A stretch of 64,000 nt of DNA, from the IMG/VR virus record IMGVR_UViG_3300022933_000006, positions 1 to 64,000 of that record, one strand, 5' to 3'. Each line of letters opens with the position of its first letter. Position 1 is the stretch's first letter. Source of the DNA: a virus. The notes beneath the pieces were generated by a model, which saw only the letters and a program-made list of their open reading frames with translations, was not told the origin of the DNA and did not search any database. This document shows, in pieces, positions 42,259-57,267 of the stretch. A program made the position numbers and the translations under genes.

Positions 42259-42452
42259 GCTTCTATCCTCTTTAACTCTAATTTAACCTTTGATCTCTTA
42301 CTTGATCTCAATATAACACTACAACAAGGACATCGATTACCAACTTCCTTTAAATACCATGTACTGCATAGATTACATCTTTTACAAAATTCATAAGTAG
42401 ATTGTTTATAGGGAATCTTAGTCCTATGACATATACCTTTACATTTATTCAT
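42255..42452 (-). CDS. Zinc-binding small protein
   Basis: 65 aa, ATGA overlap with the VWA gene. KCKGICHRTK, FCKRCNLC and RCPCCSVI, then a basic tail SSKRSKVKLELKR. Paralogue of the products at 40009 and 42445. Confidence 0.55.
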   Translation of the reverse strand: MNKCKGICHRTKIPYKQSTYEFCKRCNLCSTWYLKEVGNRCPCCSVILRSSKRSKVKLELKRIEA

Positions 42453-42663
42453 ATCTGGGCTTCTCCAATTTTACCAAGCTTCTTGTTCTTGCTGTCATTC
42501 TTGTCTTGCCATTGCAACAGAAACATCTGTAATTATTGGTATCTTTTACCAAGAACATCTTTTGACATGTTCTGCAAAACGTAATCAGTCCTGACGGATA
42601 TGAGTGAGCCAAATGTGTAACATCTTTGTAGTCATTACAAAGGTCTTTACATTTACAGGGCAT
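42445..42663 (-). CDS. Zinc-binding small protein
   Basis: 72 aa. CKCKDLCNDYK, TFCRTCQKMF and YRCFCCNGKTRM, ending in basic RTRSLVKLEKPRYE. Same Cys layout as its downstream neighbour, with which it overlaps by 8 nt: tandem duplication. Confidence 0.55.
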   Translation of the reverse strand: MPCKCKDLCNDYKDVTHLAHSYPSGLITFCRTCQKMFLVKDTNNYRCFCCNGKTRMTARTRSLVKLEKPRYE

Positions 42664-43306: not shown

Positions 43307-43449
43307 TCTCTATCATACCTCTCATCAGGTTCAGATGCATCTCTCATCATGTCTTGTATATCATCCATTAGATTTTCCCATACATATTCAAGAATGTTGT
43401 CTTGATCCATTTTTTCCAATATTTTCAAATCATCATCATAATCAGTCAA
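43303..43449 (-). CDS. 48-aa acidic helical microprotein
   Basis: TTG 43449 (TTGA overlap) to TGA 43303-43305. DDDLKILEKMDQDNILEYVW then MDDIQDMMRDA: strongly acidic amphipathic helices. Function unknown. Confidence 0.45.
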   Translation of the reverse strand: MTDYDDDLKILEKMDQDNILEYVWENLMDDIQDMMRDASEPDERYDRD

Positions 43450-43589
43450 TTCAATACTTCCTCGTATTTGATAGTCTTACTGTCATAAAAACCTATGTAA
43501 TGACAGTCCTTGCATTGTTGTTTTAACCAGCAATGTCTTCCTGTACAACCCGTAGATTTGTATGTCTTTAAACAAGTCTTGCATCTCAA
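43446..43589 (-). CDS. 47-aa cysteine-rich microprotein
   Basis: TTG 43589 to TGA 43446-43448, with TTGA overlaps on both sides. MRCKTCLKTYKSTGCTGRHC then CKDCHYIGFYD: seven Cys, at least one zinc site. Confidence 0.45.
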   Translation of the reverse strand: MRCKTCLKTYKSTGCTGRHCWLKQQCKDCHYIGFYDSKTIKYEEVLN

Positions 43590-43711
43590 TTCAATCTTTT
43601 CTCAATTATAGTATATATTTGTTTACATATAGGACATTGAACATTATTTTCTGTTCCTCTTTTCTTTATCCATTTCATATGCTTCTCACAATTAGGACAT
43701 AAGTCTAACAT
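43586..43711 (-). CDS. 41-aa zinc-ribbon microprotein
   Basis: ATG 43711. LCPNCEKHMKWIKKRG and VQCPICKQIYTI: a rubredoxin-like two-knuckle zinc ribbon, basic between the knuckles. Confidence 0.55.
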   Translation of the reverse strand: MLDLCPNCEKHMKWIKKRGTENNVQCPICKQIYTIIEKRLN

Positions 43712-43714
43712 ATT

Positions 43715-43882
43715 CTATCCCTCATAATCCCATATATGAAACAAATGGAAACATAAAAAGTGCCATTGTTTAAATGTTCCACCGTCATATATTGCCATTC
43801 TTTGATCTCCGTGTTTCCAACGTCTTAGAGTTATTTCTAACTGCCATTCGTTGAATTCTTTATTAGATATATTCCAAATCAT
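43715..43882 (-). CDS. 55-aa aromatic-rich microprotein
   Basis: ATG 43882 overlaps the previous stop (ATGA); TAG at 43715-43717. Rich in Trp, His and Phe (WQLEITLRRWKHGD; QWHFLCFHLFHIW). No family recognised. Confidence 0.45.
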   Translation of the reverse strand: MIWNISNKEFNEWQLEITLRRWKHGDQRMAIYDGGTFKQWHFLCFHLFHIWDYEG

Positions 43883-44184
43883 TTCTTACTACTCCTCTTT
43901 CTTTTTAAATTATAATTTCTCATGTATATCCTTCTTTCCTCTCTCTTTACAGGATCTTTGAAATAATCTATTGCATAACTAAGTGCCTTGTCCTTATTAT
44001 CTTTGTAATATTGTCTTCCGTAAGCTAGTTTCTTCTCTCTGTTTTTGTAATAAGATTTCAAATCACTTTTTCTTTGTGCAATAAGCAAACATTTGGAACA
44101 GTATTCTTTTGGTCTTCCCCTATACCATTCCAAAGGCTTGTTGCATATCTTACACTTGATATTGTATTTGCTGGATCTAGGCAT
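43879..44184 (-). CDS. Zinc-ribbon protein with basic helical tail
   Basis: 101 aa. CKICNKPLEWYRGRPKEYC followed by SKCLL, then a long Lys/Arg/Tyr-rich helix region (KNREKKLAYGRQYYKDNKDK). The ribbon is the same as in the plus-strand product at 29951. Looks nucleic-acid binding, as in HNH-associated 'NUMOD'-like zinc modules, but no HNH core is present. Confidence 0.55.
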   Translation of the reverse strand: MPRSSKYNIKCKICNKPLEWYRGRPKEYCSKCLLIAQRKSDLKSYYKNREKKLAYGRQYYKDNKDKALSYAIDYFKDPVKREERRIYMRNYNLKRKRSSKK

Positions 44185-44829
44185 TTAATAATGCATCTCC
44201 TTCCATACTTTGATCATTTCATCAACTTGTTCGTCACTTGCAACTTTTCCTTTCTTAGTATGATAAGAGTGTCCTGCCATAACTAATTCAGCAATAGCAC
44301 TATGTTGTTCGTTTTCATAAATGGTATCGGTTCTTCCATCTCTTTTGCCATCAACATACTTTGCAACATAGTCGTTTACTGGTGGCATACTGTTTGCAAT
44401 TTCGTTGAATTTTGTCCACTCAACGTTTCTCCATTTTTTTGCCCATTGCCAATATGCATGACCTATTATCTCATGGTAAATTATTTCATCAGCATCATCA
44501 ACGTCTATGTTTGCATGATCTACAAATTCAAACCATTGCTTAATGCTATTCCAACTACCTGCTCTATTGATAGTCTTTGCATACTTTATCGTTATTCCCT
44601 TGATATGTTTCATAATTTTTCTAATGTCTTTGTCAGTATTTATTCTCATGATAATTCTATCAACAACTTCTTGTTTTGGTGCTGGTATTCCATCTCTACT
44701 CCAACCACCAGAAGTTTCCTTTCCGATATAGACATAAGTATTCTTGTAGACTTTAATTCCATGACTTCCTTTTTTTGCACGTTTTGATCTGTTCACTTTT
44801 CTTTTTGATTTCCTTAATATCTGACTCAT
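44185..44829 (-). CDS. HExxxH zincin-like protein
   Basis: 214 aa. Basic N-terminus (SKRKVNRSKRAKKG). The centre has DEIIYHEIIGHAYWQWAKKW, an HExxxH rather than HExxH arrangement with a following Gly-His; a second conserved-looking segment ENEQHSAIAELVMAGHSYH may give the third ligand. Similar spacing is known in TldD- and DUF1704-type metallopeptidases. Substrate unknown; one base upstream lies the AAA ATPase stop. Confidence 0.55.
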   Translation of the reverse strand: MSQILRKSKRKVNRSKRAKKGSHGIKVYKNTYVYIGKETSGGWSRDGIPAPKQEVVDRIIMRINTDKDIRKIMKHIKGITIKYAKTINRAGSWNSIKQWFEFVDHANIDVDDADEIIYHEIIGHAYWQWAKKWRNVEWTKFNEIANSMPPVNDYVAKYVDGKRDGRTDTIYENEQHSAIAELVMAGHSYHTKKGKVASDEQVDEMIKVWKEMHY

Positions 44830-44831
44830 GA

Positions 44832-45755
44832 TTATAAACTCACATTAAACGTGTCATTAATTCTTAATCGAATCAATTCACGTTCACTAGGCTCACTAAA
44901 TTTTATCATGATAACCTCGCTAAGAGCAGTTTCCAATGGTCTAGGAATCTTATCCTGTATGCTTCTAAAGTGGTGGGTAAACTGTACAATATCCCTAATA
45001 GATAGAGCATAGTCAACGTCACCTTTCAACTTAAGGGCATAAATGTCCTGTGCAAGAGTCAAAAGTGGGTTCTTAATTGCATCTTCACCTATATCTGTCC
45101 AATCAACTACCTTCTGAATGTCCTCATTCTTTGGATAATCCCATGCACTACCGATAAATCTGCTTCTTAATGCTTCTGCCATACTGTTCACACCTACATA
45201 AGTGACTGGATTGATAGTCCAAATGATAGACAACTTGCAACCCTTCTTGAGTTTGTACTGCTTACCGTTTGCAACTACGCTACGTCTTCCGTCACATATA
45301 GAGTGCCACCATTGTTGAATCTCATGTTCCTGACTGTTACCCTCATCACCATAAAGACAAGCGTGTCCAAAGTGATTTGCAACCTCTATTGCCTTAGGCA
45401 ATAAACCAAGACTAAAGAAAGTACCATCTCTGTTGATCTCCTTACTGCCAATCAAATCAGATTTCTTAGTACCTACACCGATAGGCTCGTTAATCAAGGC
45501 AACACCGTTCTCCTTACATATAGTATGTGTCAATAGTGTCTTACCCTGACCTTTCTCACTCTCAATAAGATACGGAAGTTTTCCTTCCATGATAGCCATA
45601 GTCAATCTGGTCTTCTCATCACCTATAGCTATGTACTCATCCCATACGTCAATGTTTGACGGATCGTACTGAGCAAAGTCAATAGGCAGTACAGGTATTC
45701 CTGTGTTCATGATTGTTTCAGGTTGTTCTGTTATATAATTCATTTCGTCAGTCAT
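44832..45755 (-). CDS. cobS-like: MoxR/CobS-like AAA ATPase
   Basis: 307 aa. Walker A ESEKGQGKTLL (~65-75), Walker B ACLYGDEGN with D137/E138, sensor 1 IIWTINPV (~172) and arginine finger LRSRFIG (~194); a MoxR-type insert lies before Walker B. The first Gly of the P-loop is replaced (ESEKGQGKT). Phage 'CobS' ATPases of this type are common in marine viruses and usually pair with a VWA protein, here the product at 40531. Likely role: ATP-driven remodelling. Start shares ATGACTGAC with the previous gene end. Confidence 0.8.
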   Translation of the reverse strand: MTDEMNYITEQPETIMNTGIPVLPIDFAQYDPSNIDVWDEYIAIGDEKTRLTMAIMEGKLPYLIESEKGQGKTLLTHTICKENGVALINEPIGVGTKKSDLIGSKEINRDGTFFSLGLLPKAIEVANHFGHACLYGDEGNSQEHEIQQWWHSICDGRRSVVANGKQYKLKKGCKLSIIWTINPVTYVGVNSMAEALRSRFIGSAWDYPKNEDIQKVVDWTDIGEDAIKNPLLTLAQDIYALKLKGDVDYALSIRDIVQFTHHFRSIQDKIPRPLETALSEVIMIKFSEPSERELIRLRINDTFNVSL

Positions 45756-46168
45756 TGTTTAATTTCTCCAATAAAAGCTTCAATTTCATCACAACAATCT
45801 GGACAAACTGTAAAACTAGCATTATGTTCAAAATCAAACTTATCTGCCAAACTACATTTCCAAGAAAATGCTTCATATCTTCTCTCATCTATTTGAATGT
45901 GGCATCTGTCACATGATCTATGTGGTTGACTTTTGTAAGGGAATGTTTCTACCATTCGTATTTCAGGCATACATTCACCTTCTTCAGTTCTAGTTCCACC
46001 TGCTGTCCAAACAAAAGACCTTCCTTCCCAATGACCATCGTCATTTGGATCTCTCATTTTTTCCACAATTTCTTCCATAGATAAACAACTGTCAGGATGG
46101 TTATAATCTATTTCTATGTTATCCTCATCAGGTGATATTCCTTTTATCTGTTCCATTGATTTTTCCAT
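45752..46168 (-). CDS. Zinc-binding protein
   Basis: 138 aa. Acidic N-terminus, then RSCDRCHIQID, a WKC motif and TVCPDCCDEIEAF: one zinc site. Overlaps the AAA ATPase gene by 4 nt, so it may be part of that system. No family recognised. Confidence 0.5.
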   Translation of the reverse strand: MEKSMEQIKGISPDEDNIEIDYNHPDSCLSMEEIVEKMRDPNDDGHWEGRSFVWTAGGTRTEEGECMPEIRMVETFPYKSQPHRSCDRCHIQIDERRYEAFSWKCSLADKFDFEHNASFTVCPDCCDEIEAFIGEIKQ

Positions 46169-46344
46169 TATTTCAAATCCTCCCTTTTATTTACCCAATC
46201 CCCAAGAGTAGGTTCTAAACGATATCTCCTTTTAGCTTTTCTGATCAAGTTTTCAATTACTGTATGAAATTCATCTTGAAATATATTATCTGCACAATAT
46301 GTTAATTGATCAATAGTATTTTCCAATTCCTCTTTTTCAGTCAT
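46168..46344 (-). CDS. 58-aa helical microprotein
   Basis: ATG 46344, stop TAA 46168-46170 (TAATG). MTEKEELENTIDQLTYCADN then a basic helix IRKAKRRYRLEPTL. SD-like GGAAGG lies before the start. Function unknown. Confidence 0.5.
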   Translation of the reverse strand: MTEKEELENTIDQLTYCADNIFQDEFHTVIENLIRKAKRRYRLEPTLGDWVNKREDLK

Positions 46345-47024
46345 TTCAATCCTTCCAATAGTTTTTTGGCTAAATCTCCAGTTGTCAAACCTGTAACTCT
46401 TATTCCTTCAATAATCATGTCATCTTTATATGCTTTTTTCAAGAAAATCGTCACGTCATCTTTTACAAGTATATAACTTTTTTCTGTGAAAATCGTTGCT
46501 CTTGTTCCTGCTTCATTATATCTATTGTAAGATCTACCATCTCTTTCAGATGCAATATATTTACTTATTTTATTCCATTCAATGGTATTTTTTGCAACTG
46601 CTTCTTCATATTCTTTATCTGCTTTTATTTGTCGTTGATTATCTCTTTCTTCATGTCTTGCTTTTTCTTCTCTTTCTTTAATCTTTTTTCTGATTATTGA
46701 TCTTGCTTTACTACATACTTCCCAATCACCAAGATCTACTCTTGAATTCCATGAATGTACTTTCCATCTAATTTTTGATCCATTTACTACTATCCATTCA
46801 TGTCCACATGATGAATATTCACCACGAAGTACTTGATAAGTTTTTGTCCAACTTACTCTTATTGGAAAATCTATATTTGGAAAATCACTTTCTAAATTAT
46901 TTTTAACATAATCAATCAGTGAGTTTCTTTCATTTTCCATCTTTATTTTGAAATGTGAACTATTACACCAGCTACGGTATTCACCTTTCACAACATTTTG
47001 ACATCCTTTAATAGAACAAGTCAT
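46341..47024 (-). CDS. Zinc-finger plus coiled-coil protein
   Basis: 227 aa. N-terminal CSIKGCQNVVKGEYRSWC finger, a beta-rich part (IRWKVHSWNSRVDLG), a charged coiled coil (~118-150, KKIKEREEKARHEERDNQRQ) and a C-terminal alpha/beta domain. Function unknown. Confidence 0.5.
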   Translation of the reverse strand: MTCSIKGCQNVVKGEYRSWCNSSHFKIKMENERNSLIDYVKNNLESDFPNIDFPIRVSWTKTYQVLRGEYSSCGHEWIVVNGSKIRWKVHSWNSRVDLGDWEVCSKARSIIRKKIKEREEKARHEERDNQRQIKADKEYEEAVAKNTIEWNKISKYIASERDGRSYNRYNEAGTRATIFTEKSYILVKDDVTIFLKKAYKDDMIIEGIRVTGLTTGDLAKKLLEGLK

Positions 47025-47152
47025 TATATAAAATCCTCCTCATGACCATCCTCGCAGTCACATGACATATTATGACTAATGCACCAACAATGTAAGCATT
47101 GATTAGATTCATCATAATAATCAAAATCTAACTCGCACGTTTTACACTTCAT
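47024..47152 (-). CDS. 42-aa cysteine-rich microprotein
   Basis: ATG 47152, stop TAA 47024-47026. MKCKTCELDFDYYDE, QCLHCWCISH, SCDCEDGHEED: eight Cys in 42 residues, probably two zinc ions. Confidence 0.5.
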   Translation of the reverse strand: MKCKTCELDFDYYDESNQCLHCWCISHNMSCDCEDGHEEDFI

Positions 47153-47379
47153 TATTCCTTATCCTCCATTCTATGCAATTCAATCCACCATGTATCGAAT
47201 TCATTATTATTCTGTACAAAATGTTTATTGCCATTAATCGTGATAGTCAACAAATCAAAATCAAATTTAATTACAGCTTTTGATAAATCAGATTTGGTAA
47301 TTGATGTTATACCATTTACAACGATATCTTTACCGTAAACATCATTGCCCATATTTTTAAATTCAATCCTATTACTCAT
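47152..47379 (-). CDS. Hypothetical small beta-rich protein
   Basis: 75 aa: MSNRIEFKNMGNDVYGKDIV, IKFDFDLLTITINGNKHF, then a Trp-containing helix. Contrast with neighbours: no Cys. One-base overlaps with both neighbours. Function unknown. Confidence 0.5.
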   Translation of the reverse strand: MSNRIEFKNMGNDVYGKDIVVNGITSITKSDLSKAVIKFDFDLLTITINGNKHFVQNNNEFDTWWIELHRMEDKE

Positions 47380-47651
47380 TATTTCAATCCCTCCAATGTA
47401 TCTTCATCATACGTTTTCATCTTGCTTGGATCTAACTGTTTTTCTCCAGATTTTTCCATCTCTTGAAAACCGTCTTGTAACAATGCTAGTAACACAAATT
47501 TCAATGTGCCTATAACCTGTCCGTTGTTGTATTGTTTGTTAGGAATAGACTTTAGTATAGTCATAGCCAATTCAGGATCAATATACTCTAATTCAGGAAT
47601 TCTTGACATTTCTTCTCTAGCCTTGTCAAAGAATTTTTTATTTCTAGGCAT
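47379..47651 (-). CDS. Hypothetical helical protein
   Basis: 90 aa, basic start MPRNKKFFDKAREEM, then a hydrophobic helix VIGTLKFVLLALLQDG and an acidic end. No Cys. Overlaps the previous gene by 8 nt. Function unknown. Confidence 0.5.
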   Translation of the reverse strand: MPRNKKFFDKAREEMSRIPELEYIDPELAMTILKSIPNKQYNNGQVIGTLKFVLLALLQDGFQEMEKSGEKQLDPSKMKTYDEDTLEGLK

Positions 47652-47889
47652 TGATTAAAGACTCCTCATCTTCAATATCTTCAAGTACTGAATAATATTG
47701 CTTAGATTCTGGATGAATAATTAGATCAACATCAAATTCTTCATGACATTTTGCACATGGAACTCTAACAGCCCATCCATCTCCATTACTTTGAAGTTCT
47801 GTTTCCTCTACAAATGGAGTATTTGCCTGTCCATATTTCAAGTATTGTGTAAGATCATCAAAAGATATGATATGTTTACAGTCAGTCAT
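47644..47889 (-). CDS. Zinc-ribbon-containing protein
   Basis: ATG 47889 (TAATG overlap, ATGACTGAC start) preferred over an in-frame ATG at 47898. 81 aa with VPCAKCHEEFDVDLIIHPES; with C4 and H6 near the start (DCKH) this may complete a zinc site. Acidic C-terminus. Confidence 0.5.
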   Translation of the reverse strand: MTDCKHIISFDDLTQYLKYGQANTPFVEETELQSNGDGWAVRVPCAKCHEEFDVDLIIHPESKQYYSVLEDIEDEESLINA

Positions 47890-48101
47890 TATTTCCATCT
47901 CCCATAGTCAGGCAAAGGATCTAACGGTAGTTCTTCGTTGCTTCCCCATATACAATAGTTGCTTCTACTACAAGCCTTGCATATATGGTCGGTAAATATC
48001 TCACCAGAACCAACAACCAAGCCTTTATGCTTGTTGTCTTTTTCTTCTTCACATAGATAGCAGATGAATTTCTTGCTAGAACTAGGTTTCAATATAGTCA
48101 T
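47889..48101 (-). CDS. Zinc-ribbon protein
   Basis: 70 aa: ICYLCEEEKDNKH and HICKACSRSNYC form a four-Cys ribbon; the end LPLDPLPDYGRWK is proline-rich. SD-like AAAGGAG lies before its start. Function unknown. Confidence 0.55.
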   Translation of the reverse strand: MTILKPSSSKKFICYLCEEEKDNKHKGLVVGSGEIFTDHICKACSRSNYCIWGSNEELPLDPLPDYGRWK

Positions 48102-48334
48102 GCTTTTTCTCCTTTAATCACACATGTAGAACACGGATTTATGTTATGAATTACTATAGAATTTATATTATATTCACACGTTTCACATACTTCCCAACAA
48201 TATAAACCGTTTTCAGTGCTATACAATGCTAAATGTTCTTTCAAATATTCTTTTTTGCATTTATCGCATTCAAACCATAAAGATTCGTGAATAGCATTAT
48301 AAATCTTGTCAACTTCCTTTTTAGTTGTTAACAT
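48098..48334 (-). CDS. Zinc-ribbon protein
   Basis: 78 aa: FECDKCKKEYLKEHLALY, WEVCETCEYNI and NPCSTCVIKGEKA, three Cys pairs. ATGA overlap with the next gene. Function unknown. Confidence 0.55.
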   Translation of the reverse strand: MLTTKKEVDKIYNAIHESLWFECDKCKKEYLKEHLALYSTENGLYCWEVCETCEYNINSIVIHNINPCSTCVIKGEKA

Positions 48335-48363
48335 TTTTTTATACCTTATTTTTTATTTTTTAT

Positions 48364-48486
48364 CTATTGATTCACCTTGTCTCCCATAGTATATGAATTG
48401 TTTTTTACACCTTTCACCATAATACTTAGCCATAAATTGCACATATAACCGTATGCACAATAGGCTAAGCCTAAAAATTCTGTCAT
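48364..48486 (-). CDS. 40-aa microprotein
   Basis: ATG 48486, stop TAG 48364-48366. MTEFLGLAYCAYGYMCNLWL is hydrophobic; the last residues GDKVNQ and the DNA behind them match the end of the gene at 53357 (GEKVNQ), including an 18-nt identical block. Confidence 0.4.
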   Translation of the reverse strand: MTEFLGLAYCAYGYMCNLWLSIMVKGVKNNSYTMGDKVNQ

Positions 48487-48764
48487 TATACGAAAACCTC
48501 CTCTAAAACTTCACTATCAAATATTGGTATATCATATTGAAAGTAATTATACCATTCTTTAGGTTCATCCTCGAAATCCCACATGAAAATAGTTTTTAAT
48601 TTAAAGAAATTTTCTTGAACCATAAATTCTAAACGACCATTTATTTTACCAATGAATTGTTTATATCCATCTTGTGTGTATTCATGGTATGAATCCCAAA
48701 GACATTTCCTTGCACAATTCTCAGGGATTTCATCTATAAATACTCTAACTGATTTTGGTATCAT
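48486..48764 (-). CDS. Hypothetical protein
   Basis: 92 aa, Phe/Trp-rich and acidic (FKLKTIFMWDFEDEPKEWYN), with only two Cys. Resembles a compact alpha/beta protein. Function unknown. Confidence 0.5.
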   Translation of the reverse strand: MIPKSVRVFIDEIPENCARKCLWDSYHEYTQDGYKQFIGKINGRLEFMVQENFFKLKTIFMWDFEDEPKEWYNYFQYDIPIFDSEVLEEVFV

Positions 48765-48898
48765 TCTTCTAACATCTCCATGTGCTTACACTTGCCACCA
48801 ATATCCTTTTTTCTATACTTATAGTCGTTACAAGTACAGGAATCTTTCGATACTTGGTATGTTCCTGTCTTGCCTTTGATAGTAACGAACTCAGTCAT
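48761..48898 (-). CDS. SWIM zinc-finger microprotein
   Basis: 45 aa from ATG 48898. The pattern SCTCNDYKYRKKDIGGKCKH is C-x-C-x(n)-C-x-H, the SWIM motif, preceded by the usual beta hairpin (VTIKGKTGTYQVSKD). SWIM fingers bind DNA or proteins. Free-standing SWIM domains occur in archaea and phages. Confidence 0.65.
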   Translation of the reverse strand: MTEFVTIKGKTGTYQVSKDSCTCNDYKYRKKDIGGKCKHMEMLEE

Positions 48899-49070
48899 TG
48901 TAATGAAATCTCCAAGGTTCTTCTATTGAATCGTGAATCATTTTGTGCAATTTATCTGCCAACTCATCATGATTCAAATACATTTGACGATCATGTGTAT
49001 GTTGATTTCTCAATACATCAATTATTCTTTCCATATCATCTATACTAAGACTTGTTAGTTTTTCAGTCAT
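48891..49070 (-). CDS. 59-aa helical His-rich microprotein
   Basis: ATG 49070; the stop overlaps the next start in ATGACTGA. DDMERIIDVLRNQHTHDRQM then LADKLHKMIHD: helices with several His. Function unknown. Confidence 0.5.
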   Translation of the reverse strand: MTEKLTSLSIDDMERIIDVLRNQHTHDRQMYLNHDELADKLHKMIHDSIEEPWRFHYND

Positions 49071-49113
49071 TATAATAAGTCCTCATTCCTTTTTATTCTC
49101 ATTTTATATTCTT

Positions 49114-49344
49114 TCATTTTGATTCCCCACAGTCTTTACAATATGATCTTCCTTTATCATAAGCTTCCCAATCCATATCTGCATCAATGAATAATCCACC
49201 ACATTCTGCACAAAGATTCAACCCATCAGGCTGACATTTTTTACATAAGAAATCAGGGTATTCATCAGCTATTGGATCGTCACGTTTACCCAAATATTCT
49301 ATTCTACATCTTATACACATTACATCACAATTATCAGTATACAT
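49114..49344 (-). CDS. Multi-zinc-ribbon protein
   Basis: 76 aa with CDVMCIRCR, FLCKKC, NLCAECGG and SYCKDCGESK: enough Cys for two ribbons, one rubredoxin-like. A 15-codon frame follows with ATGA overlap (49069-49116) and may or may not be real. Confidence 0.55.
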   Translation of the reverse strand: MYTDNCDVMCIRCRIEYLGKRDDPIADEYPDFLCKKCQPDGLNLCAECGGLFIDADMDWEAYDKGRSYCKDCGESK

Positions 49345-49634
49345 TATATTCTACTCCTTCTTGCTTCTTTATGAAACAGGAATGTTTCCATTACAACATC
49401 GTCTAATGCATATTTATAAGGTTGTGCATTTGTTATACTAATGTCTTTCTTTGACATATACTCATCATAAGTGTACTCAACTTGACCATAAGTGTATGTT
49501 GAACCATTTGGATTAGTTACAACTTTTACAGGTATTAGTTCAAACATTTTTTCTAGTTTATGTACTCTTTCGTTTAACATATCAATCTCACCTTGAAGTT
49601 GAAACATGGATTCCATTGTTTCTGTATCAGTCAT
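49344..49634 (-). CDS. Coiled-coil protein
   Basis: Start taken at ATG 49634 (ATGACTGA junction with the previous gene); an extension to 49739 would run through that gene in another frame. 96 aa: coiled coil MESMFQLQGEIDMLNERVHK, then a Tyr-rich segment. Function unknown. Confidence 0.5.
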   Translation of the reverse strand: MTDTETMESMFQLQGEIDMLNERVHKLEKMFELIPVKVVTNPNGSTYTYGQVEYTYDEYMSKKDISITNAQPYKYALDDVVMETFLFHKEARRSRI

Positions 49635-49776
49635 ATCTAGGAACTCCCTGTGTTGTATTTCTGTGTTGAACTTTTGCTTTAATGTGCCAAGTATCATGTC
49701 TTGATATTCTTTCATTAAACAATGAATCTTCACTATCAAATGTCATATCACACAATGAACAATGTAACATAGTCAT
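49627..49776 (-). CDS. 49-aa C2H2 zinc-finger microprotein
   Basis: ATG 49776, TGA 49627-49629. LHCSLCDMTFDSEDSLFNER then SRHDTWH: Cys-x2-Cys ... His-x4-His, a classic C2H2 finger with its helix. Likely nucleic acid or protein binding. Confidence 0.6.
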   Translation of the reverse strand: MTMLHCSLCDMTFDSEDSLFNERISRHDTWHIKAKVQHRNTTQGVPRYD

Positions 49777-50111
49777 CCTACTAGACACATCCCACACCAA
49801 TACCATGAATTATAATATGGAGTTGTTGTTTTATCTTTGCCACATTCACCACATAGATCTACTTCTTTTTTCTCAGTTATAAGGAATTTTGACATATTAC
49901 GACAGTCAGCACATTCACCTCTTGTACTATAAATAGCATTTTCAAGTGATCTGCTTAACAAATACTCGGCATTTTCATGTGGGTGTGTCTCTCTAAATAT
50001 TTTTTTTCCTTCTTCTATCATTTCACATTTTTGACAAAAGGGATTTTCATCAGTCCAACTTTCAATAGTCATGTTACATCTTTCACATGGGTATATACAT
50101 GGGCTAGTCAT
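49773..50111 (-). CDS. Multi-zinc-ribbon protein
   Basis: 112 aa. CERCNMT, FCQKCEM, ECADCRN, LCGECGK and WCGMC, five Cys pairs, so two or three zinc ions. ATGA overlap with the C2H2 gene. Function unknown. Confidence 0.55.
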   Translation of the reverse strand: MTSPCIYPCERCNMTIESWTDENPFCQKCEMIEEGKKIFRETHPHENAEYLLSRSLENAIYSTRGECADCRNMSKFLITEKKEVDLCGECGKDKTTTPYYNSWYWCGMCLVG

Positions 50112-50218
50112 TGTTTCTTCTCCATTACTAATTGTTTCAACAGTATTTTTATTTCTTTTAATTCATGACGTATCTGTGTAACATTGTCATAATACTGTCT
50201 TTCATATCCTGTAACCAT
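50108..50218 (-). CDS. 36-aa coiled-coil microprotein
   Basis: ATG 50218 to TGA 50108-50110 (ATGA overlap). VTQIRHELKEIKILLKQLVM is a leucine-zipper-like amphipathic helix. Function unknown. Confidence 0.45.
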   Translation of the reverse strand: MVTGYERQYYDNVTQIRHELKEIKILLKQLVMEKKQ

Positions 50219-50220
50219 TG

Positions 50221-50553
50221 TTATAGATCTCCTACCTCAAAGTCAACATCTCTATTGGAGAACTCTCCTCTACCTGTAGCTCCACAGTTAAGACATGTTC
50301 CCTCAATCATACAACCATCTCCACACATATTATCTTCTGCTGTTTCATAATCCCATATTACATCATGAAAATCATCTCTACAACATACACACTCAACATC
50401 AGTTATTTTTTTATTTTTCCAATTAGTTGATTGAAATTCTTTTCTTGTAATATATGTACTTGCGTGTTCTGTAAATTCTCTATCACATTTACAACAGTTT
50501 ATTGTTATGAATGTTTCACTAAGCATTTTACCGTCTACCTCATAAGTACTCAT
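50221..50553 (-). CDS. Multi-zinc-binding protein
   Basis: 110 aa: INCCKCDREFTEHAS, VECVCCRDDFHD, MCGDGC and GTCLNCGATGRGEF. First part resembles a C2H2-like or ribbon fold. ATGA overlap upstream. Confidence 0.55.
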   Translation of the reverse strand: MSTYEVDGKMLSETFITINCCKCDREFTEHASTYITRKEFQSTNWKNKKITDVECVCCRDDFHDVIWDYETAEDNMCGDGCMIEGTCLNCGATGRGEFSNRDVDFEVGDL

Positions 50554-50810
50554 TGTGCTTCTAACCTCGATTTGATAGATGAGCCACCTTCATTTTTATT
50601 TTCTTTCATATCATAGAACTTTCTACTGTCACCGTCATTATATTGAATGAAAGGGGAGTATTCTCCACTATGTATCTTTTTGTGGCAATCATAATGAACA
50701 TATGCTATTTTTTCAGGAAAATAACATACATGGTGTCTAATGAGTTTACCATCTAGTGGAGAACCAAAACAAACGATACAGGTATCACTTTTATTAAGAA
50801 ATTCAGTCAT
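50550..50810 (-). CDS. HNH-fold-like zinc protein
   Basis: 86 aa. DTCIVCFGSPLDGKLIRHHV then YVHYDCHKKIHSGEYSP: C-x2-C, H-H, C-H-x3-H, the HNH/recombination endonuclease VII layout. Overlaps the amidoligase end (ATGA). May be a nicking enzyme or a structural relative. Confidence 0.6.
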   Translation of the reverse strand: MTEFLNKSDTCIVCFGSPLDGKLIRHHVCYFPEKIAYVHYDCHKKIHSGEYSPFIQYNDGDSRKFYDMKENKNEGGSSIKSRLEAQ

Positions 50811-51760
50811 ACCCTAATCACCTCATAATCATTTGTCATTGTTATTTCACCATTCATATCAACATCTTCAGGTTCTTCATTCATGTATTCCATGACCATA
50901 GTGTTAGATATTCTACCTTCAAAATCAACTTCAGGCTCTACTGATTTATGATTAACTTGTATTGGTTTGTTAGCCATTTTATCTAGGTATTTCTGAATGA
51001 TACCCATAGATACCTCTACTGCTTTACAGTATATTTTAGAATCTATGAATATTGGCAATATTCGTATTTCCAATGTTCCATGTTTGTGATATTGGTAGTT
51101 TAGTGCAGAATATCTACAATTAGGATAGTTATCATTTCTAATGTATAACTGCTGTTCTCCCCTGTAATCAATATTGCACATATTGTTTTCATCTGCCAAT
51201 CTATCCCAAAAGTTTTGATTTCTTATGTTGGCTTTTTTACCCCATCTTGTCAATTCTTGTATAAAGTGATTAAAGAACTCTCTAGTACATAACAATTCAA
51301 ATGCCTGAATGTTATCAAATGATACATGGAAATGACCACCACATGAACTATTCATATCTTCAGGATAATATCTATGAACCCAATTTCTCCATGTGCCATC
51401 AATAGGCATTGGGTATGATATTATTTCACCTGAATGTCCTGATTCCTGATTATAACAATGATCTCCTTCGTCATTACAACAGTAATCACAGTCGCCACAT
51501 TGTTCACCACCATATTCTAATCCTTCTACTGATGAATCGTCATGCCACATATAAGAACTATATAACCAATTACGGTGATCATGCTCATTATCAGGCATTT
51601 CATTCCAACCACCCTCTAATTCAACGCCAATTTTTACTATTTTGCATTGAGGTGTCATTAAAACATGGGTATTTTGACAGTTTTCACAACAGAAACAGAA
51701 TCTATCATTATCAAATGTCATATCCATGTAACAACTAGAACAGTTGTATGTATCTGACAT
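50807..51760 (-). CDS. Amidoligase (COOH-NH2 ligase, glutamine synthetase-like fold)
   Basis: 317 aa from ATG 51760, two nt after the amidotransferase stop; ATG 51781 would extend it by 7 residues. Motifs of the amidoligase_2 family in order: KIGVELEGGW (~44-53), WHDDSSVEG (~72), GEIISYPMP, GGHFHVSF (~142), CRYSALNY and GTLEIRI. The family joins carboxyl and amino groups using ATP in peptide tagging or peptide synthesis. A Cys-rich finger (NCSSC...CFCCENC) precedes the core and another Cys-rich insert follows DSS. It is paired with a class II amidotransferase, as in known phage and bacterial clusters. Confidence 0.8.
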   Translation of the reverse strand: MSDTYNCSSCYMDMTFDNDRFCFCCENCQNTHVLMTPQCKIVKIGVELEGGWNEMPDNEHDHRNWLYSSYMWHDDSSVEGLEYGGEQCGDCDYCCNDEGDHCYNQESGHSGEIISYPMPIDGTWRNWVHRYYPEDMNSSCGGHFHVSFDNIQAFELLCTREFFNHFIQELTRWGKKANIRNQNFWDRLADENNMCNIDYRGEQQLYIRNDNYPNCRYSALNYQYHKHGTLEIRILPIFIDSKIYCKAVEVSMGIIQKYLDKMANKPIQVNHKSVEPEVDFEGRISNTMVMEYMNEEPEDVDMNGEITMTNDYEVIRV

Positions 51761-51761
51761 A

Positions 51762-52547
51762 TTATAGTGGCTCCTTGTCATATCTTTTTGATGCTATTTG
51801 ACAACCGTCAAGATAATCTAACTCGTCATCACAATAGAATGTTTGACCATCAACAAATTGTCTTTGGTAATTATCCTCATAATCTTCAATAGATTGAATT
51901 TTTGTGTCAGATTTCTTTGCTTTGTATGTGAAATTACCACCATAATCTCCCCAACTAGGTGTAGGATCGAATAAATCATTACTGCAAGATATGTTATTTA
52001 CCTTTGTCCAACCGTCACCAAATCTATCAATACCGTCAGGTGACAATACAATGACTTTTTCTCCTGTAAATTCAAGGAAATTAATGCCTTTATGTGAAGC
52101 ACACCAAGCCATAATACTACTGTCACTCATATCACCGTCAGGAATACGAATATTAGGATTGTTAAATGCTAATTTTATAGCAAAATCATCAAACTCAGTC
52201 CATATACCATTATGGAACATGACAGATTGTCTTGTACTTCCTCTGGTTCTATTTGATAATGCACTACCGTCTTTGTTCATTCCTAATGGGAATGGGTGGC
52301 ATAACATATCATTATTTGCACCATGAGTACCAATTCTGAAATGTACAATAAGATTATTTTTCTTGGTCAATTTATTTTTCTTGACATATTTAGATACATA
52401 TTCAGCAGTAACATGAAGACCTTTTTCCCAATGTACTAGACCATCTCTGGTATATGCAAATCCACCACCATCACGATTAGTTTTTTCTGCATCTTTGAGC
52501 ATGTCTAGTTTAGGAATGTGATCATCACATTGTAATATAACACACAT
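51762..52547 (-). CDS. Class II glutamine amidotransferase (Ntn hydrolase)
   Basis: 261 aa. The N-terminal Cys2 follows the start Met (MCVILQC), as required for the Ntn nucleophile. NRDGGGFAY, VHFRIGTHG (R71), HPFPLG and FHNGIWTEFDD (N113/G114) and a DMSDSS Asp complete the GATase II signature. Such enzymes release ammonia from glutamine or cleave amide bonds. Immediately upstream of the amidoligase with 1-nt spacing, so the two probably work on the same substrate. Confidence 0.85.
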   Translation of the reverse strand: MCVILQCDDHIPKLDMLKDAEKTNRDGGGFAYTRDGLVHWEKGLHVTAEYVSKYVKKNKLTKKNNLIVHFRIGTHGANNDMLCHPFPLGMNKDGSALSNRTRGSTRQSVMFHNGIWTEFDDFAIKLAFNNPNIRIPDGDMSDSSIMAWCASHKGINFLEFTGEKVIVLSPDGIDRFGDGWTKVNNISCSNDLFDPTPSWGDYGGNFTYKAKKSDTKIQSIEDYEDNYQRQFVDGQTFYCDDELDYLDGCQIASKRYDKEPL

Positions 52548-53086
52548 TATCTAATATGCTCCGATTTTATGGTAATCTTGCCTTTGGACTGTTTTGGTGT
52601 CATGTATTTGTTGTACATTTTTCCTAACATTTGCATGGTTTTATCACAATACAAATTAAATTTCTTACCATCAACAGGTGAGCCATTAATACATACCTTG
52701 ATACCTTTGGATAGGTCTTTAGCCCTAACCCATGACATATTTGGAATATCTAAATCCTCAGTTATTTGAGAATTAAAGAACATTTCATTACTCTCACCCC
52801 AATATTTTATTGATGTGAAAATATCATGGTCATCTGGTCTAGAATATGCATAAGAACTAATTTGTTTCAATCCTGTACGAATAGGATTCCATTTGTCATC
52901 TCCACCATAATCAGGATTTAATGATTGATTTTTGAAATATTTTTCAAATACGTCAGATTTAGCCTTTACAATAAATAATCCATTTTCTCTCAAGAATGTT
53001 ACTGACATTACAGTTTTTCTGGTGACAGGATCTACTACTGTTCTACTAATACCTTGCACATTTGCATCAAACATTTTTTGATTCAT
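52547..53086 (-). CDS. Hypothetical protein of the amidoligase cluster
   Basis: 179 aa, single-base overlap with the amidotransferase. Beta-rich N-terminus (TRKTVMSVTFLRENGLFIVK), a middle with YWGESNEMFFN and a basic C-terminal helix TMQMLGKMYNKYMTPKQSKG. No motif recognised. It could be the substrate or a substrate-binding partner of the ligase pair. Confidence 0.5.
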   Translation of the reverse strand: MNQKMFDANVQGISRTVVDPVTRKTVMSVTFLRENGLFIVKAKSDVFEKYFKNQSLNPDYGGDDKWNPIRTGLKQISSYAYSRPDDHDIFTSIKYWGESNEMFFNSQITEDLDIPNMSWVRAKDLSKGIKVCINGSPVDGKKFNLYCDKTMQMLGKMYNKYMTPKQSKGKITIKSEHIR

Positions 53087-53238
53087 TATAATAAATTCTC
53101 CTCATATTCTTTCATAGCTTCATCTTGACCACATTTAGAACATAAATCAGTCATATTGTCTTTTCTAGATAGAGCTGGGAAATCTTCATCATAACTTTTA
53201 GTCATGTTACAGATACCACATGTATAATAATCAGTCAT
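53086..53238 (-). CDS. 50-aa phage-type zinc-ribbon protein
   Basis: ATG 53238, preceded by ...AATGACTGA of the previous gene. CGICNMTKSYDEDFPALSRK then DLCSKCGQDEA. The 'PALSR.DN....C..CG..EA' signature occurs in many phage small proteins. Zinc binding; role unknown. Confidence 0.65.
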   Translation of the reverse strand: MTDYYTCGICNMTKSYDEDFPALSRKDNMTDLCSKCGQDEAMKEYEENLL

Positions 53239-53341
53239 TTTCTACTAACCATGCCCATTCTGGTCTTTCATTATATGATTCATCTATATCAGATTCTTCA
53301 GTCAAATTAAACACAGAACATTTGCCGTTTTTACAGGTCAT
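53231..53341 (-). CDS. 36-aa microprotein
   Basis: ATG 53341 to TGA 53231-53233. MTCKNGKCSVFNLTEESDID then a Trp-rich acidic end. The short CKNGKC start recalls the 59302 gene's CEDGSC motif. Function unknown. Confidence 0.45.
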   Translation of the reverse strand: MTCKNGKCSVFNLTEESDIDESYNERPEWAWLVEND

Positions 53342-53356
53342 TTCTTTATTCTCTAT

Positions 53357-53704
53357 CTATTGATTCACCTTTTCTCCTTTGATAGTATGAATGGATTCTC
53401 CGTTCATTATAATCTCCCCCATATACTCCTTGATTGGGTGCGAAATATTGTATTTATCTGACATATTATAATCTCTGTCAGAGCAGCATTTGTTACATTT
53501 ATAATCATATACATGACCTTCAATACGTTCAACATCATTACTAGAAATATACTCATAAACCATGTGTACTCTACCACACCAATTATCATATTTACCACCA
53601 GATTCATAATATGTTTGTCTTTCCATTTTAATTCTTTTATTACATGACACACATAATGTATCAGGTCTTATAAGAGAAACGAGGGGAATAGTAGTTAATA
53701 TCAA
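53357..53704 (-). CDS. Zinc-binding protein
   Basis: 115 aa from TTG 53704 (TTGA overlap). LCVSCNKRI, WCGRVH, YKCNKCCSD; the end IHTIKGEKVNQ is related to the end of the 48364 gene. Possibly one ribbon spanning the protein. Confidence 0.5.
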   Translation of the reverse strand: MILTTIPLVSLIRPDTLCVSCNKRIKMERQTYYESGGKYDNWCGRVHMVYEYISSNDVERIEGHVYDYKCNKCCSDRDYNMSDKYNISHPIKEYMGEIIMNGESIHTIKGEKVNQ

Positions 53705-53799
53705 TTTATATCTCCTTGCATTTTTAACATATATTCATACTCTGAGGGTAAAAGGAGTAATTTCCATATTCTATTCATTATTGTTTTTTTACAGTTCAT
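53701..53799 (-). CDS. 32-aa basic microprotein
   Basis: ATG 53799 (ATGA overlap, GGAG upstream) to TGA 53701-53703. MNCKKTIMNRIWKLLLLPSE, amphipathic. Translational coupling is the main support. Confidence 0.4.
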   Translation of the reverse strand: MNCKKTIMNRIWKLLLLPSEYEYMLKMQGDIN

Positions 53800-54074
53800 G
53801 ATAAATCTCCTGAAGCATCTTTTAACAATTCTAGTAAATCCTCTTTTGTATAAGATAATTCTTTACCATTTCTAGTTATTGTAAATCTATTACCAAAAGG
53901 AATGTTAAAAGCACTATTTACTATATTTTCAGCAGTTCTTGTTTGCATATGTTCACATAATTCTTTAAATCCATTTATATCCCACCACACCTTATCATAA
54001 TCTCCATAACCATTGCGTATATATGATTTGTAACTATATCTTACAGTATTACCTCTTAAATGTGTTTTACTCAT
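53796..54074 (-). CDS. Hypothetical protein
   Basis: 92 aa. Tyr-rich N-terminus (SYKSYIRNGYGDYDKVWWDI), central helix, and a basic loop NRFTITRNGKELSYTKEDLL. No Cys pair. ATGA overlaps on both sides. Function unknown. Confidence 0.5.
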   Translation of the reverse strand: MSKTHLRGNTVRYSYKSYIRNGYGDYDKVWWDINGFKELCEHMQTRTAENIVNSAFNIPFGNRFTITRNGKELSYTKEDLLELLKDASGDLS

Positions 54075-54256
54075 GATTCATCTCCATAATAACATGTAGG
54101 ACATAATTTACTATATATCATATACCAATTATGTATTAAACTATCAACATATTTATCTACTTTCATTTTATTACCACATTCCATACAATATATATCTCCA
54201 CGATATCTAGCATCATAATATCTGTGGTTATTTGTAATAGACAAAGCATTGGTCAT
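54071..54256 (-). CDS. Zinc-ribbon protein
   Basis: 61 aa: IYCMECGNKMKVD and KLCPTCYYGDES, a four-Cys ribbon. GGAGATTTATC lies directly before its ATG, as before the 53799 gene. Confidence 0.55.
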   Translation of the reverse strand: MTNALSITNNHRYYDARYRGDIYCMECGNKMKVDKYVDSLIHNWYMIYSKLCPTCYYGDES

Positions 54257-54336
54257 GATAAATCTCCACTATATTCTAAATAACATACATACGATATAAT
54301 CCATATAATAGAAAAAAGAGGGGTGGAAATACTCAT
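54253..54336 (-). CDS. 27-aa hydrophobic microprotein
   Basis: ATG 54336 and TGA 54253-54255, coupled by ATGA overlaps on both sides. MSISTPLFSIIWIISYVCYL is a possible transmembrane helix. The double coupling argues that it is translated. Confidence 0.4.
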   Translation of the reverse strand: MSISTPLFSIIWIISYVCYLEYSGDLS

Positions 54337-54773
54337 AATAAGAGTACTCCTGTTAGATCAAATTTATCAATCTTACTGTATTTTAACTGTATAAATGGAT
54401 TACAATCTATATAATCATTGTAACAGTCAATAACACTATTGATATTTCTGAACTTTTTGTTGAGAAATGCTATTGAATCCATACCATAAGATTGATTATG
54501 ATAATCATCTAGATTAGCCTTCATGATAGTAGCTGTTCTTGCTATCCAAATGACATCATCCTTATGATTACCCATATCCTTACGGTCTATTCTAACCATA
54601 CGAGAATCAATCTGATTCATGTATTGACGTATTTCTCTACCTCTAGATGTATTAACCTCTACTGTATGAACATTACCATGCTCATTAACAATATTTGCTA
54701 ATTCACTAGATATTCTAGTTCTCAAATGCTGGCGATTTTTTCGAGACACAACCCTAGCAACCGATACCCTCAA
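54333..54773 (-). CDS. First gene of the minus-strand operon, hypothetical
   Basis: 146 aa if started at TTG 54773 with GGAGTGG six bases upstream; GTG 54749 is an alternative. Basic N-terminus (RVVSRKNRQHLRTRIS), then alpha/beta segments (GNVHTVEVNTSRGREIRQYM, KFRNINSVIDCYNDYID). Promoter-proximal position suggests early expression. No family recognised. Confidence 0.5.
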   Translation of the reverse strand: MRVSVARVVSRKNRQHLRTRISSELANIVNEHGNVHTVEVNTSRGREIRQYMNQIDSRMVRIDRKDMGNHKDDVIWIARTATIMKANLDDYHNQSYGMDSIAFLNKKFRNINSVIDCYNDYIDCNPFIQLKYSKIDKFDLTGVLLL

Positions 54774-54819
54774 TTTCCACTCCAGTCACGATCAGGCACA
54801 AATTGACCATTAATAATAA

Positions 54820-54849
54820 CCCCTCTCCCCTTAACAATCCCCTCACCCC
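54820..54849 (-). other. G-quadruplex-type motif
   Basis: On the minus strand four GGGG runs are separated by TGA, ATTGTTAA and AGA. In DNA this AT-rich it is an outlier. It lies 47-76 nt upstream of the first minus-strand gene, hence in its promoter or leader. Confidence 0.55.
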
Positions 54850-55060
54850 TTACTGATATAAGCTGGGCAAGACATTGTACATACATGTTCCTAGACATTA
54901 ACACCAATAATAATACTACCATACACCCCACCAATAGATGAACGAACTGTCTTATAATGGAATGGTTTGATACCTAGAATGTCCTTAGATATAGCGACGA
55001 TTCACCTATAAAAGCATTTGTTTTTATTTTTTTCCTAGAGTATATATACTAGGCGTAAAT

Positions 55061-55190
55061 TGAAGTATATAAAGAGACCACCATTTCCACTCCAGTCGTC
55101 AATCGAAGTATTTAAAGAGACATTATACTGTATCATACGGTAGCGTACTGTACTTATATAACGCCTGAACTGAAGTATTTAAAGAGACCA
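55061..55190 (+). promoter_or_regulatory. Three tandem near-identical TATA promoters
   Basis: TGAAGTATATAAAGAGACCA (55061-55080), CGAAGTATTTAAAGAGACA (55104-55122) and TGAAGTATTTAAAGAGACCA (55171-55190). The last TATA (TATTTAAA, 55176-55183) is 29 nt before ATG 55205. GAAG upstream of each TATA may act as the BRE. Confidence 0.7.
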
Positions 55191-55204
55191 ATATTACGCC
55201 TACT

Positions 55205-55510
55205 ATGACTGGACTGGAAACGAAGGGTATCGGTAAGTACTATTGTATGGCACAACAAATACGACCAACCCTCACAAAAGAGGAATGGGCTTTAATCGAA
55301 GCAAATAGGAAGGACGAGGAAATGTATTCAGAATTCAAAGGTAATCTACCTTTGATTGAAGCATTTGAAGCATGTCTTAATCCAGCCAATGAAAAAGGTA
55401 ATCGTAGCTTCAATCAAGAGAAATTTGAAGCACTCATTGGTGCTATCATGGCATGTAAAATAGCTACTGTCAACGGTAGACCTTATCAAGACAACAAAAG
55501 CCCAAAATAA
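55205..55510 (+). CDS. Hypothetical early protein
   Basis: 101 aa: MTGLETKGIGKYYCMAQQIR, then two to three helices (KEEWALIEANRKDEEM; FEALIGAIMACKIATV). Driven by the triple promoter and closed by an intrinsic terminator-like hairpin, so it is a tightly controlled monocistronic unit and probably strongly expressed. No family recognised; an early regulator or anti-host factor is possible. Confidence 0.65.
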   Translation: MTGLETKGIGKYYCMAQQIRPTLTKEEWALIEANRKDEEMYSEFKGNLPLIEAFEACLNPANEKGNRSFNQEKFEALIGAIMACKIATVNGRPYQDNKSPK

Positions 55511-55522
55511 TTAAACACCTAA

Positions 55523-55550
55523 TGCGTGAATACTTTCACGCAGTTTTTTT
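55523..55550 (+). terminator. Hairpin plus T-run terminator
   Basis: TGCGTGAA (55523-55530) pairs with TTCACGCA (55535-55542) around loop TACT, followed by seven T at 55544-55550. It begins 12 nt after the stop of the 55205 gene. Confidence 0.7.
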
Positions 55551-55690
55551 ACTCGATTTCCCGTTGCTGGTACGCATGGCGAAAAAACGGTTTTTAAAGG
55601 ATTACCACATATATATAACTCTCGAAAAAACATTGACCAAATCTGGAAAAAATCTGAACCCTATTTAGGAATATACACTTATATATAAGC
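55551..55690. other. Short intergenic stretch
   Basis: No firm gene. A 30-codon plus frame starts ATG 55576 (MAKKRFLKDYHIYITLEKTL) and ends 55668; it has no clear promoter. ACATATATATAAC at 55606-55618 is TATA-like. I do not call a gene here. Confidence 0.3.
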
Positions 55691-55885
55691 CTATTCAGGT
55701 GGCTTGTAATCCTGCTTGTCACTATTATTTATACCATCAGCAACCAAAGTACCCTGTATTCTGAACATACATGACATGAGTTCGGGGAGGTTAAACTTGG
55801 TTCCATTACCTTTATAATGCTCTTTATACTTTCTGCTGCATGCAATACATATGATATTCTCAAGGTCTTTACGACTTAGGCTCAA
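55691..55885 (-). CDS. Small protein with CxxC motif
   Basis: 64 aa: LSRKDLENIICIACSRKYKE then NLPELMSCMFRIQGTLV. Overlaps the preceding minus gene by 4 nt. Might be a small helical DNA-binding or zinc protein. Function unknown. Confidence 0.5.
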   Translation of the reverse strand: MSLSRKDLENIICIACSRKYKEHYKGNGTKFNLPELMSCMFRIQGTLVADGINNSDKQDYKPPE

Positions 55886-56028
55886 CGCATATCCTCCAGA
55901 GAAGCATTGTCTTCCATACGATCTATCATGTCTACAAGAAGTTGCTTTATAACCTCACGCCTGTCGTCAGGCATCCATTCCTCATGTAATAATTTGAGAA
56001 GATCATCGATAGCTGTGCTCATACTCAT
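55882..56028 (-). CDS. 48-aa helical acidic microprotein
   Basis: ATG 56028 to TGA 55882-55884. STAIDDLLKLLHEEWMPDDR then a helix EVIKQLLVDMIDRMED. Overlaps its neighbour on each side. Function unknown. Confidence 0.5.
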   Translation of the reverse strand: MSMSTAIDDLLKLLHEEWMPDDRREVIKQLLVDMIDRMEDNASLEDMR

Positions 56029-56789: not shown

Positions 56790-56956
56790 TTCGTAACTTT
56801 ATCAACGGGTTGAAAAAATCATTTAGTGGAAAGGATTATCTTAGGGAAATCAACCAATGTAATAAATGTGGAAATCCAAGCTTCTTTGATTCATGCCTGA
56901 AATGTGAGACTGATGATGCATACCGTGGATGGAACAAAAAACAGTTTGAAAGCTAA
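56786..56956 (+). CDS. 56-aa zinc-ribbon protein
   Basis: ATG 56786 overlaps the previous stop. Basic helix MIRNFINGLKKSFSGKDYLR then NQCNKCGNPSFFDSCLKC, a four-Cys ribbon. Upstream in-frame starts exist but fall inside the previous gene. Confidence 0.55.
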   Translation: MIRNFINGLKKSFSGKDYLREINQCNKCGNPSFFDSCLKCETDDAYRGWNKKQFES

Positions 56957-57267
56957 TTGCCTACGTTAAAATGTCTCTCTATATAAACCAAACTCATGAC
57001 CTTGCTCTTTAGAGTAACCTCAATTTTCTTGTAATAGTGAGACTCATACCTGTCCATTTTTTCTATGTCACTGTCACTTACCTTAAATATTTCACCTTTT
57101 ACAAAATCACCTTCTGACTTTATCACAGTTGGATATCTGTCAAGTACGCTATGAGTGTCCATAGTGTAGTTTTCCAGTATGTCTTGTTTGCCTTCAATCT
57201 CATGACCTAGCACGTTTGTTCTAAGGGTTTTGTTTAGCAAAGAACCATAGACAAAGATGTTTTTCAT
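56953..57267 (-). CDS. Gamma-glutamylcyclotransferase-like (AIG2/BtrG fold)
   Basis: 104 aa. IFVYGSLLNKTLR (the YGSL binding loop), DRYPTVIKSEGDFVKGEIF and MDRYESHYYKKIEV match the GGCT/AIG2 family, which releases 5-oxoproline from gamma-glutamyl amines. The length is minimal for the family. Proteins of this family are known to accompany amidoligases, one of which lies about 5 kb away on the same strand. TATA-like TTTTATATAA precedes it. Confidence 0.75.
   Translation of the reverse strand: MKNIFVYGSLLNKTLRTNVLGHEIEGKQDILENYTMDTHSVLDRYPTVIKSEGDFVKGEIFKVSDSDIEKMDRYESHYYKKIEVTLKSKVMSLVYIERHFNVGN

Follow-up and report, generated by a model that had tools for sequence, protein, structure and literature searches.

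Genes for an amidoligase (AL) and a glutamine amidotransferase (GAT) occur in podophages together with genes for a gamma-glutamyl cyclotransferase (GGCT) and an ATP-grasp protein, an assemblage described as a hypothetical peptidoglycan-modification cassette (PMC5498523, PMC10580990, PMC3890496). The carriers named in these accounts include phiEco32, RIO-1/PSA-HP1, LUZ24, PaP3, tf and UFV-P2 (Iyer et al. 2009, as cited in PMC10580990; PMC5498523), and the role proposed for the cassette is a hypothetical modification of peptidoglycan directed against superinfection (PMC10580990). In LUZ24, consecutive genes encode a COOH-NH2 ligase, gp17, an amidoligase, a GAT, a RimK-like ATP-grasp protein and a GGCT. 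The explanation offered for amidoligase-GAT-GGCT sets in phages is wall modification against superinfection, and we found no experimental test of it in the literature. In archaeal viruses, a class II GAT has been noted in phiCh1 and ChaoS9 (PMC8651126). MurT-GatD of S. aureus, a ligase with a separate glutaminase that amidates glutamate, offers a likeness by functional analogy only (PMC3267633). The MurT-GatD proteins are unrelated to the AL and GAT described below and their substrate is peptidoglycan. MurT has a Mur-ligase fold and GatD is a class I GAT.

The DNA analysed here, referred to as the window, covers 64.0 kb of an IMG/VR virus record with a length of 64.6 kb. The window contains the following genes.

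50550-50810, minus strand: small protein of 86 aa with Cys/His motifs; the gene overlaps the AL stop by 4 nt and, by position, lies in the same transcription unit
50807-51760, minus strand: AL, 317 aa, taken as a divergent glutamine synthetase (GS)-fold amidoligase from its motifs, relatives and structure model
51762-52547, minus strand: GAT, 261 aa, by its motifs (Cys2, HFRIGTHG, CHPF, FHNG and SD(S/T)) a class II (Ntn-type) glutamine amidotransferase
52547-53086, minus strand: X, 179 aa, conserved partner with homology, by profile comparison, to an N-terminal extension of AL in relatives
56953-57267, minus strand: GGCT, 104 aa, AIG2/GGACT-like (E 5.6e-15)

As originally predicted, the AL and GAT genes are adjacent on the minus strand with 1 nt between them. 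AL starts with the ATG at 51760, the ORF caller offering an ATG at 51781 as an alternative, GAT ends with a TAA at 51764-51762, and X is located upstream of GAT, with a 1-nt overlap between the X stop and the GAT start.

AL begins with a ribbon-like CxxC...CxxC segment, followed by GxExE (GVELE), DDSS, a Cys-rich insertion, E112, CGGHFHVSF, RYSALNY and TLEIR. The residues that define Amidoligase_2 (PF12224), namely GxExE, D.S, G.H.H, RY...N and TxExR, are all present in this order. On alignment, the catalytic motif residues coincide with those of a phage member of PF12224 (E 1e-55), and they are invariant or near-invariant across 26 AL relatives. The motifs reported for AL in the original prediction (GVELEGGW, DDSSVEG, GGHFHVSF, RYSALNY and GTLEIRI) are present and occupy invariant or conserved columns in comparisons with these relatives and with phage proteins that match PF12224. 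None of 100,000 shuffled versions of the window protein had the ordered set, and a stricter pattern matched 89 of 7,068 ORFs, every one within the set detected by the AL HMM; at the level of sequence, a chance origin of the motif order is excluded. A PF12224 search of the window AL, and of the whole record, gave no matches at all, and motif and profile routes were therefore used. Pfam, PHROGs and NCBIfam returned nothing meaningful for the window AL, and PF12224 matched two of the eight relatives scanned, weakly (best E 9e-4). PDB sequence searches with AL and with GAT, using single sequences and profiles, gave nothing useful. The AlphaFold model of AL has a confident core (pLDDT at least 90 over 123 residues), for which the top solved fold identified by Foldseek is YbdK (PDB 1r8g), a GCS2-type carboxylate-amine ligase (prob 0.75, 12% identity, TM 0.38, E 0.1), with glutamine synthetases and PafA at ranks 2 to 7. 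No Foldseek match fell below E 1e-3, and TM values were about 0.3-0.4, so that a GS-like fold is indicated by the ranking and not by E-value. As PF12224 gives no hit with it, AL is taken as a divergent amidoligase of the GS superfamily, a relative of PF12224 and not a member; the earlier label 'Amidoligase_2-type' holds for the ordered motifs but not for the Pfam HMM, which is silent on the window protein.

In the ALs of five other archaeal-virus loci (L194, L199, L193, L219 and L223), the D.S and E motifs of the catalytic domain are separated by a large Cys-rich insertion with repeated CxCxxCxxC, whose composition suggests metal binding.

The class II residues C2, R71, T/S74, N113, G114 and D142 are all present in GAT in alignments. 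The signature Cys2, R71, T/S74, HPF, HNG and SD is shared with the GATs of Marvin, MEP402 and other phages, the D lying outside the common block, and is also kept in eight archaeal-virus relatives. As judged from these alignments, GAT has a complete set of class II glutaminase residues, and Cys2, HFRIGTHG and FHNG, the motifs first reported for it, fall on columns that are invariant or conserved among class II phage GATs. The window GAT scores below the curated Pfam cut-offs (PF13522/PF13230); GATase_4 gives E 0.017, with 14.5 bits versus a cut-off of 23, and GATase_6 reaches relatives of GAT with E-values down to 7e-5. In the HMM search proposed as a check of the original prediction, neither window protein reaches a Pfam cut-off, PF12224 being touched weakly, and GATase_6 reached, by relatives.

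Of 45 virus records related through the helicase, seven have AL and the same seven have GAT, always as near neighbours. In a wider scan, 128 of 134 distinct viral GAT loci have AL next to GAT on the same strand, and 19 records combine an archaeal portal with the pair. The order is AL-GAT in 122 of the 134 loci, and the GAT-AL order of the window is rare. AL and GAT distances are correlated (Mantel r 0.655; 0 of 10,000 permutations), and one side of a branch in the GAT tree (SH-aLRT 85) holds 24 archaeal-lineage GATs plus four unassigned GATs from X-bearing loci. By gene order and sequence distance, AL and GAT stay together and co-diverge. Marvin, the OM43 phages MEP401 and MEP402, a Christensenellales phage and C75C1 have the same AL and GAT active-site residues, usually in the order AL then GAT; their GATs lie apart from the archaeal-lineage branch. 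The pair is therefore real but not unique to the window virus. The surprise expressed at its discovery was overstated, as AL-GAT pairs are common in phages; the GGCT gene, the clue to the host and the known cassette did not feature in that account.

X homologues adjoin AL and GAT, in the order X-AL-GAT in five loci (L187, L189, L190, L191 and L230), AL-X-GAT in G008 and X-GAT-AL in the window. Of 56 records, 12 encode X, and all 12 have the AL-GAT pair. In five records (G013, G016, G018, G021 and G056), AL itself has an N-terminal extension. A profile of X aligned with a profile of this fused domain, built from four of the five extended ALs, over 112 columns (P 3.3e-5, score 38.5); control scores did not exceed 17.9 with unrelated profiles or 16.1 in 60 column shuffles. 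In addition, hmmsearch with X reached the extension of one fused AL (E 4e-4). The structure model of X is moderate (mean pLDDT 68) and has no match among solved folds in the PDB; Pfam, PHROGs and NCBIfam gave nothing convincing for X. Among X homologues the C-terminus is variable and a conserved tail was not found. LUZ24 gp17, which occupies the same position upstream of AL, was considered as a homologue of X and rejected (P 0.92). As, by these profile statistics, a homologue of X forms the N-terminal domain of AL in related viruses, X is read as a subunit or adaptor, and is more likely an AL subunit than a tagged substrate. The original prediction had offered the X product as a possible target of the enzymes; the functional tie to the pair stands, and the role of tagged substrate is disfavoured by the AL fusion and by the C-terminal variability. 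At other archaeal-virus pair loci (L205 4623-4994, L223 4238-4843 and similar), a different small gene is located upstream of AL, with weak C-terminal similarity to X, and perhaps is a diverged X.

Among records longer than 37 kb, GGCT is present in 11 of the 13 that carry the pair versus none of the eight that do not (Fisher p about 2e-4, computed by hand and uncorrected for kinship, with several of the eight pair-less records being partial). A re-check with our own HMMs likewise found no AL, GAT, X or GGCT in these eight, and no GGCT in G018 and G028. In phage C75C1, a GAT-GGCT fusion is encoded near an Amidoligase_2 gene. GGCT is likely a fourth functional member of the module, co-occurring with the other genes though not adjacent to them. 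Membership of the 86-aa protein is doubtful because its gene occurs only in the closest relative.

The replicative helicase of the window virus resembles MCM-type helicases from viruses of haloarchaea and methanogens, there is a gene for a RadA/Rad51-type recombinase, and the portal matches, among phage records, only haloarchaeal viruses of the HVTV/HCTV type. These genes support the assignment as an archaeal tailed virus, which had been proposed at the outset. Contigs related to the window virus form a lineage in which portals share 70-75% identity. The near relative IMGVR_UViG_3300025168_000084 has the same gene block, with 84, 90 and 84% identity in AL, GAT and X, respectively, and dN/dS values relative to the window of 0.28, 0.30 and 0.65 (dS for X being just 0.12). 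Carriage of thaumarchaeal amoC by marine Thaumarchaeota viruses has already been reported (PMC8115048). Seven records of the present lineage have amoC, all seven with the AL-GAT pair; amoC was not found in the window record itself, and searches of genome contigs for a host, with the RadA-like protein and portal as queries, found no relatives. Since lineage relatives encode amoC, the host of the window virus is most likely an ammonia-oxidising archaeon. Such archaea have an S-layer and no peptidoglycan. One of the new findings is an archaeal tailed-virus lineage that has the AL-GAT pair and whose amoC-bearing relatives point to hosts without peptidoglycan. In three of the seven viral amoC genes, the matched stretch (G013 37549-38139, G028 11667-12203 and G066 46897-47463) contains one in-frame stop, which may reflect overrun of the match or decay.

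Elsewhere in the window, a gene for a MoxR/CobS-like AAA ATPase (44832-45755, minus strand) is located near one for a VWA-domain CobT-like protein (40531-42258, minus strand), a combination that resembles the cobST pair of haloarchaeal viruses (PMC8651126); the AAA gene is kept in all seven relatives compared. The adjoining gene (44185-44829, minus strand) encodes a 214-aa protein that has a metalloprotease-like HEIIGH motif but no Pfam match and shares 97% identity with its counterpart in the near relative. Laminin-G/concanavalin-like lectin domains (E about 1e-13) are present in the products of 8375-10408 and 15143-16486 (both plus strand), which are probable tail or fibre proteins and possibly function in receptor binding. 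GC skew flips from about +0.17 to -0.25 in 40000-56000, together with the switch to minus-strand genes.

The podophage cassette and the window share an AL, GAT and GGCT core, in which the amidoligase is encoded close to the class II GAT. The two differ in that the window set includes X, has no detected ATP-grasp protein or second COOH-NH2 ligase (PF14395), and has very low sequence similarity to the cassette. Pfam gave no match to either of the latter two families in the window proteins scanned; for the helicase (650 aa) and the portal (649 aa), the comparison was with PHROGs alone. The cassette is interpreted in terms of a host with peptidoglycan, whereas the inferred host of the window virus is archaeal and without murein; the archaeal virus markers, and amoC in seven pair-carrying relatives, both point against a peptidoglycan host.

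In phiCh1 and ChaoS9, uncharacterised proteins (phiCh1_200 and ChaoS9_220) adjoin, upstream, the GATs phiCh1_195 and ChaoS9_215. These proteins have, in order, GMEVE/GMEIE, DAS, GSHVH, YSSVTFN and TIELR, an arrangement obtained in 2 of 200,000 shuffles. The AL HMM did not detect them (E about 65 for phiCh1_200), and hhalign of phiCh1_200 gave P 0.04. From the order of their motifs, they are probable unannotated amidoligases, and phiCh1 and ChaoS9 would then also carry the pair. A similar protein is encoded on a 58-kb plasmid of Natronosalvus rutilus, for which the first motif pattern used gave no match.

L267 3158-4225, minus strand: phiCh1_200, probable amidoligase beside a class II GAT
L266 2819-3892, minus strand: ChaoS9_220, probable amidoligase beside a class II GAT
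L270 3001-4038, plus strand: Natronosalvus rutilus plasmid protein, probable amidoligase beside a class II GAT

The phiCh1 and ChaoS9 pairs resemble the window pair in having a class II GAT next to a protein with amidoligase motifs and in having archaeal hosts, but no X or GGCT was noted beside them. Their GATs are distant in the tree, so that these pairs were probably acquired separately.

We consider the chance about one in two that AL, GAT and X, with GGCT, constitute a viral glutamine-dependent amide-forming system that acts on a non-murein target. Our best guess for the chemistry is glutamine-dependent amidation or gamma-glutamyl ligation. AL would use ATP to activate a carboxylate, probably the gamma-carboxyl of glutamate, as an acyl phosphate which would then be joined to ammonia or an amine, as expected from its family. 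From the order and proximity of the genes, AL and GAT may form a complex that includes X as a subunit and in which Cys2 of GAT would split glutamine and pass on the ammonia, a two-subunit amidation functionally like that of MurT-GatD; alternatively, GAT could edit gamma-glutamyl bonds in the manner of Dug3/EgtC. X might position the substrate or link the subunits, and GGCT could take off gamma-glutamyl adducts as 5-oxoproline. Because the inferred hosts are without peptidoglycan, this is presumably not the target, which would most likely be a protein or surface polymer of the ammonia-oxidising archaeon. Superinfection exclusion, host takeover and virion modification are candidates for the benefit to the virus.

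The more specific proposal, that X, AL and GAT, with or without GGCT, form a distinct system of amide modification in viruses of ammonia-oxidising archaea, with X as AL subunit and with the S-layer, the virion, nucleic acid or a protein of the host as non-murein target, has in our view somewhat less than an even chance. It has to be weighed against a modification of the cell envelope, in which the enzymes would alter a peptide or polymer of the host surface after infection and so block superinfecting viruses, the substrate in Archaea being an S-layer protein or glutamate-bearing polymer. The AL, GAT and GGCT core is the same as in the LUZ24, UFV-P2 and RIO-1 cassettes, and the patchy presence of the accessory genes across records is expected for superinfection exclusion. 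We nevertheless regard this as rather unlikely, as the inferred hosts offer no peptidoglycan substrate, the additional cassette ligases are missing from the window proteins scanned, and the proteins look cytoplasmic, with no export features seen.

A small-molecule role is improbable. The genes would then serve auxiliary metabolism, producing or recovering amides or gamma-glutamyl compounds for the nitrogen handling of an ammonia-oxidising host, with no macromolecule being modified. The solved fold nearest to AL, YbdK, is an enzyme of the gamma-glutamyl ligase type and amoC in the relatives is a nitrogen-metabolism gene, but the pair is spread over viruses with very different hosts, and the Cys-rich and X-domain parts of AL fit a macromolecular substrate or regulation better. 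Tagging of the kind catalysed by PafA, which belongs to the same superfamily as AL, has a similarly slim chance: AL would join an amino acid or short peptide to a target by an isopeptide bond, X would serve as the tag or the substrate, and GAT and GGCT, from families able to break gamma-glutamyl bonds, would be the removal enzymes. The PafA match is, however, part of a general list of GS folds, a small Pup-like protein was not identified, and X, with its variable C-terminus and its N-terminal fusion to AL in relatives, is unlike a tag. Of the peptide-ligation or protein-tagging system originally proposed, the amidoligase and Ntn-type GAT pair is real, but nothing demonstrates tagging as opposed to amidation.

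The interest of this module lies in its host context, in the new partner X and in the lead to phiCh1. As the neighbour of its annotated class II GAT is very probably an unannotated amidoligase, phiCh1, a cultivated haloarchaeal virus, provides a tractable test bed, and the pair, very probably present in both isolated viruses, phiCh1 and ChaoS9, can therefore be tested in culture. The published explanation as wall modification is insufficient by itself, since viruses with inferred murein-free hosts have the same core. If there is indeed a distinct system in these archaeal viruses, the reading of phage AL-GAT pairs as peptidoglycan modifiers would either be wrong or would cover only a single instance of a broader chemistry.
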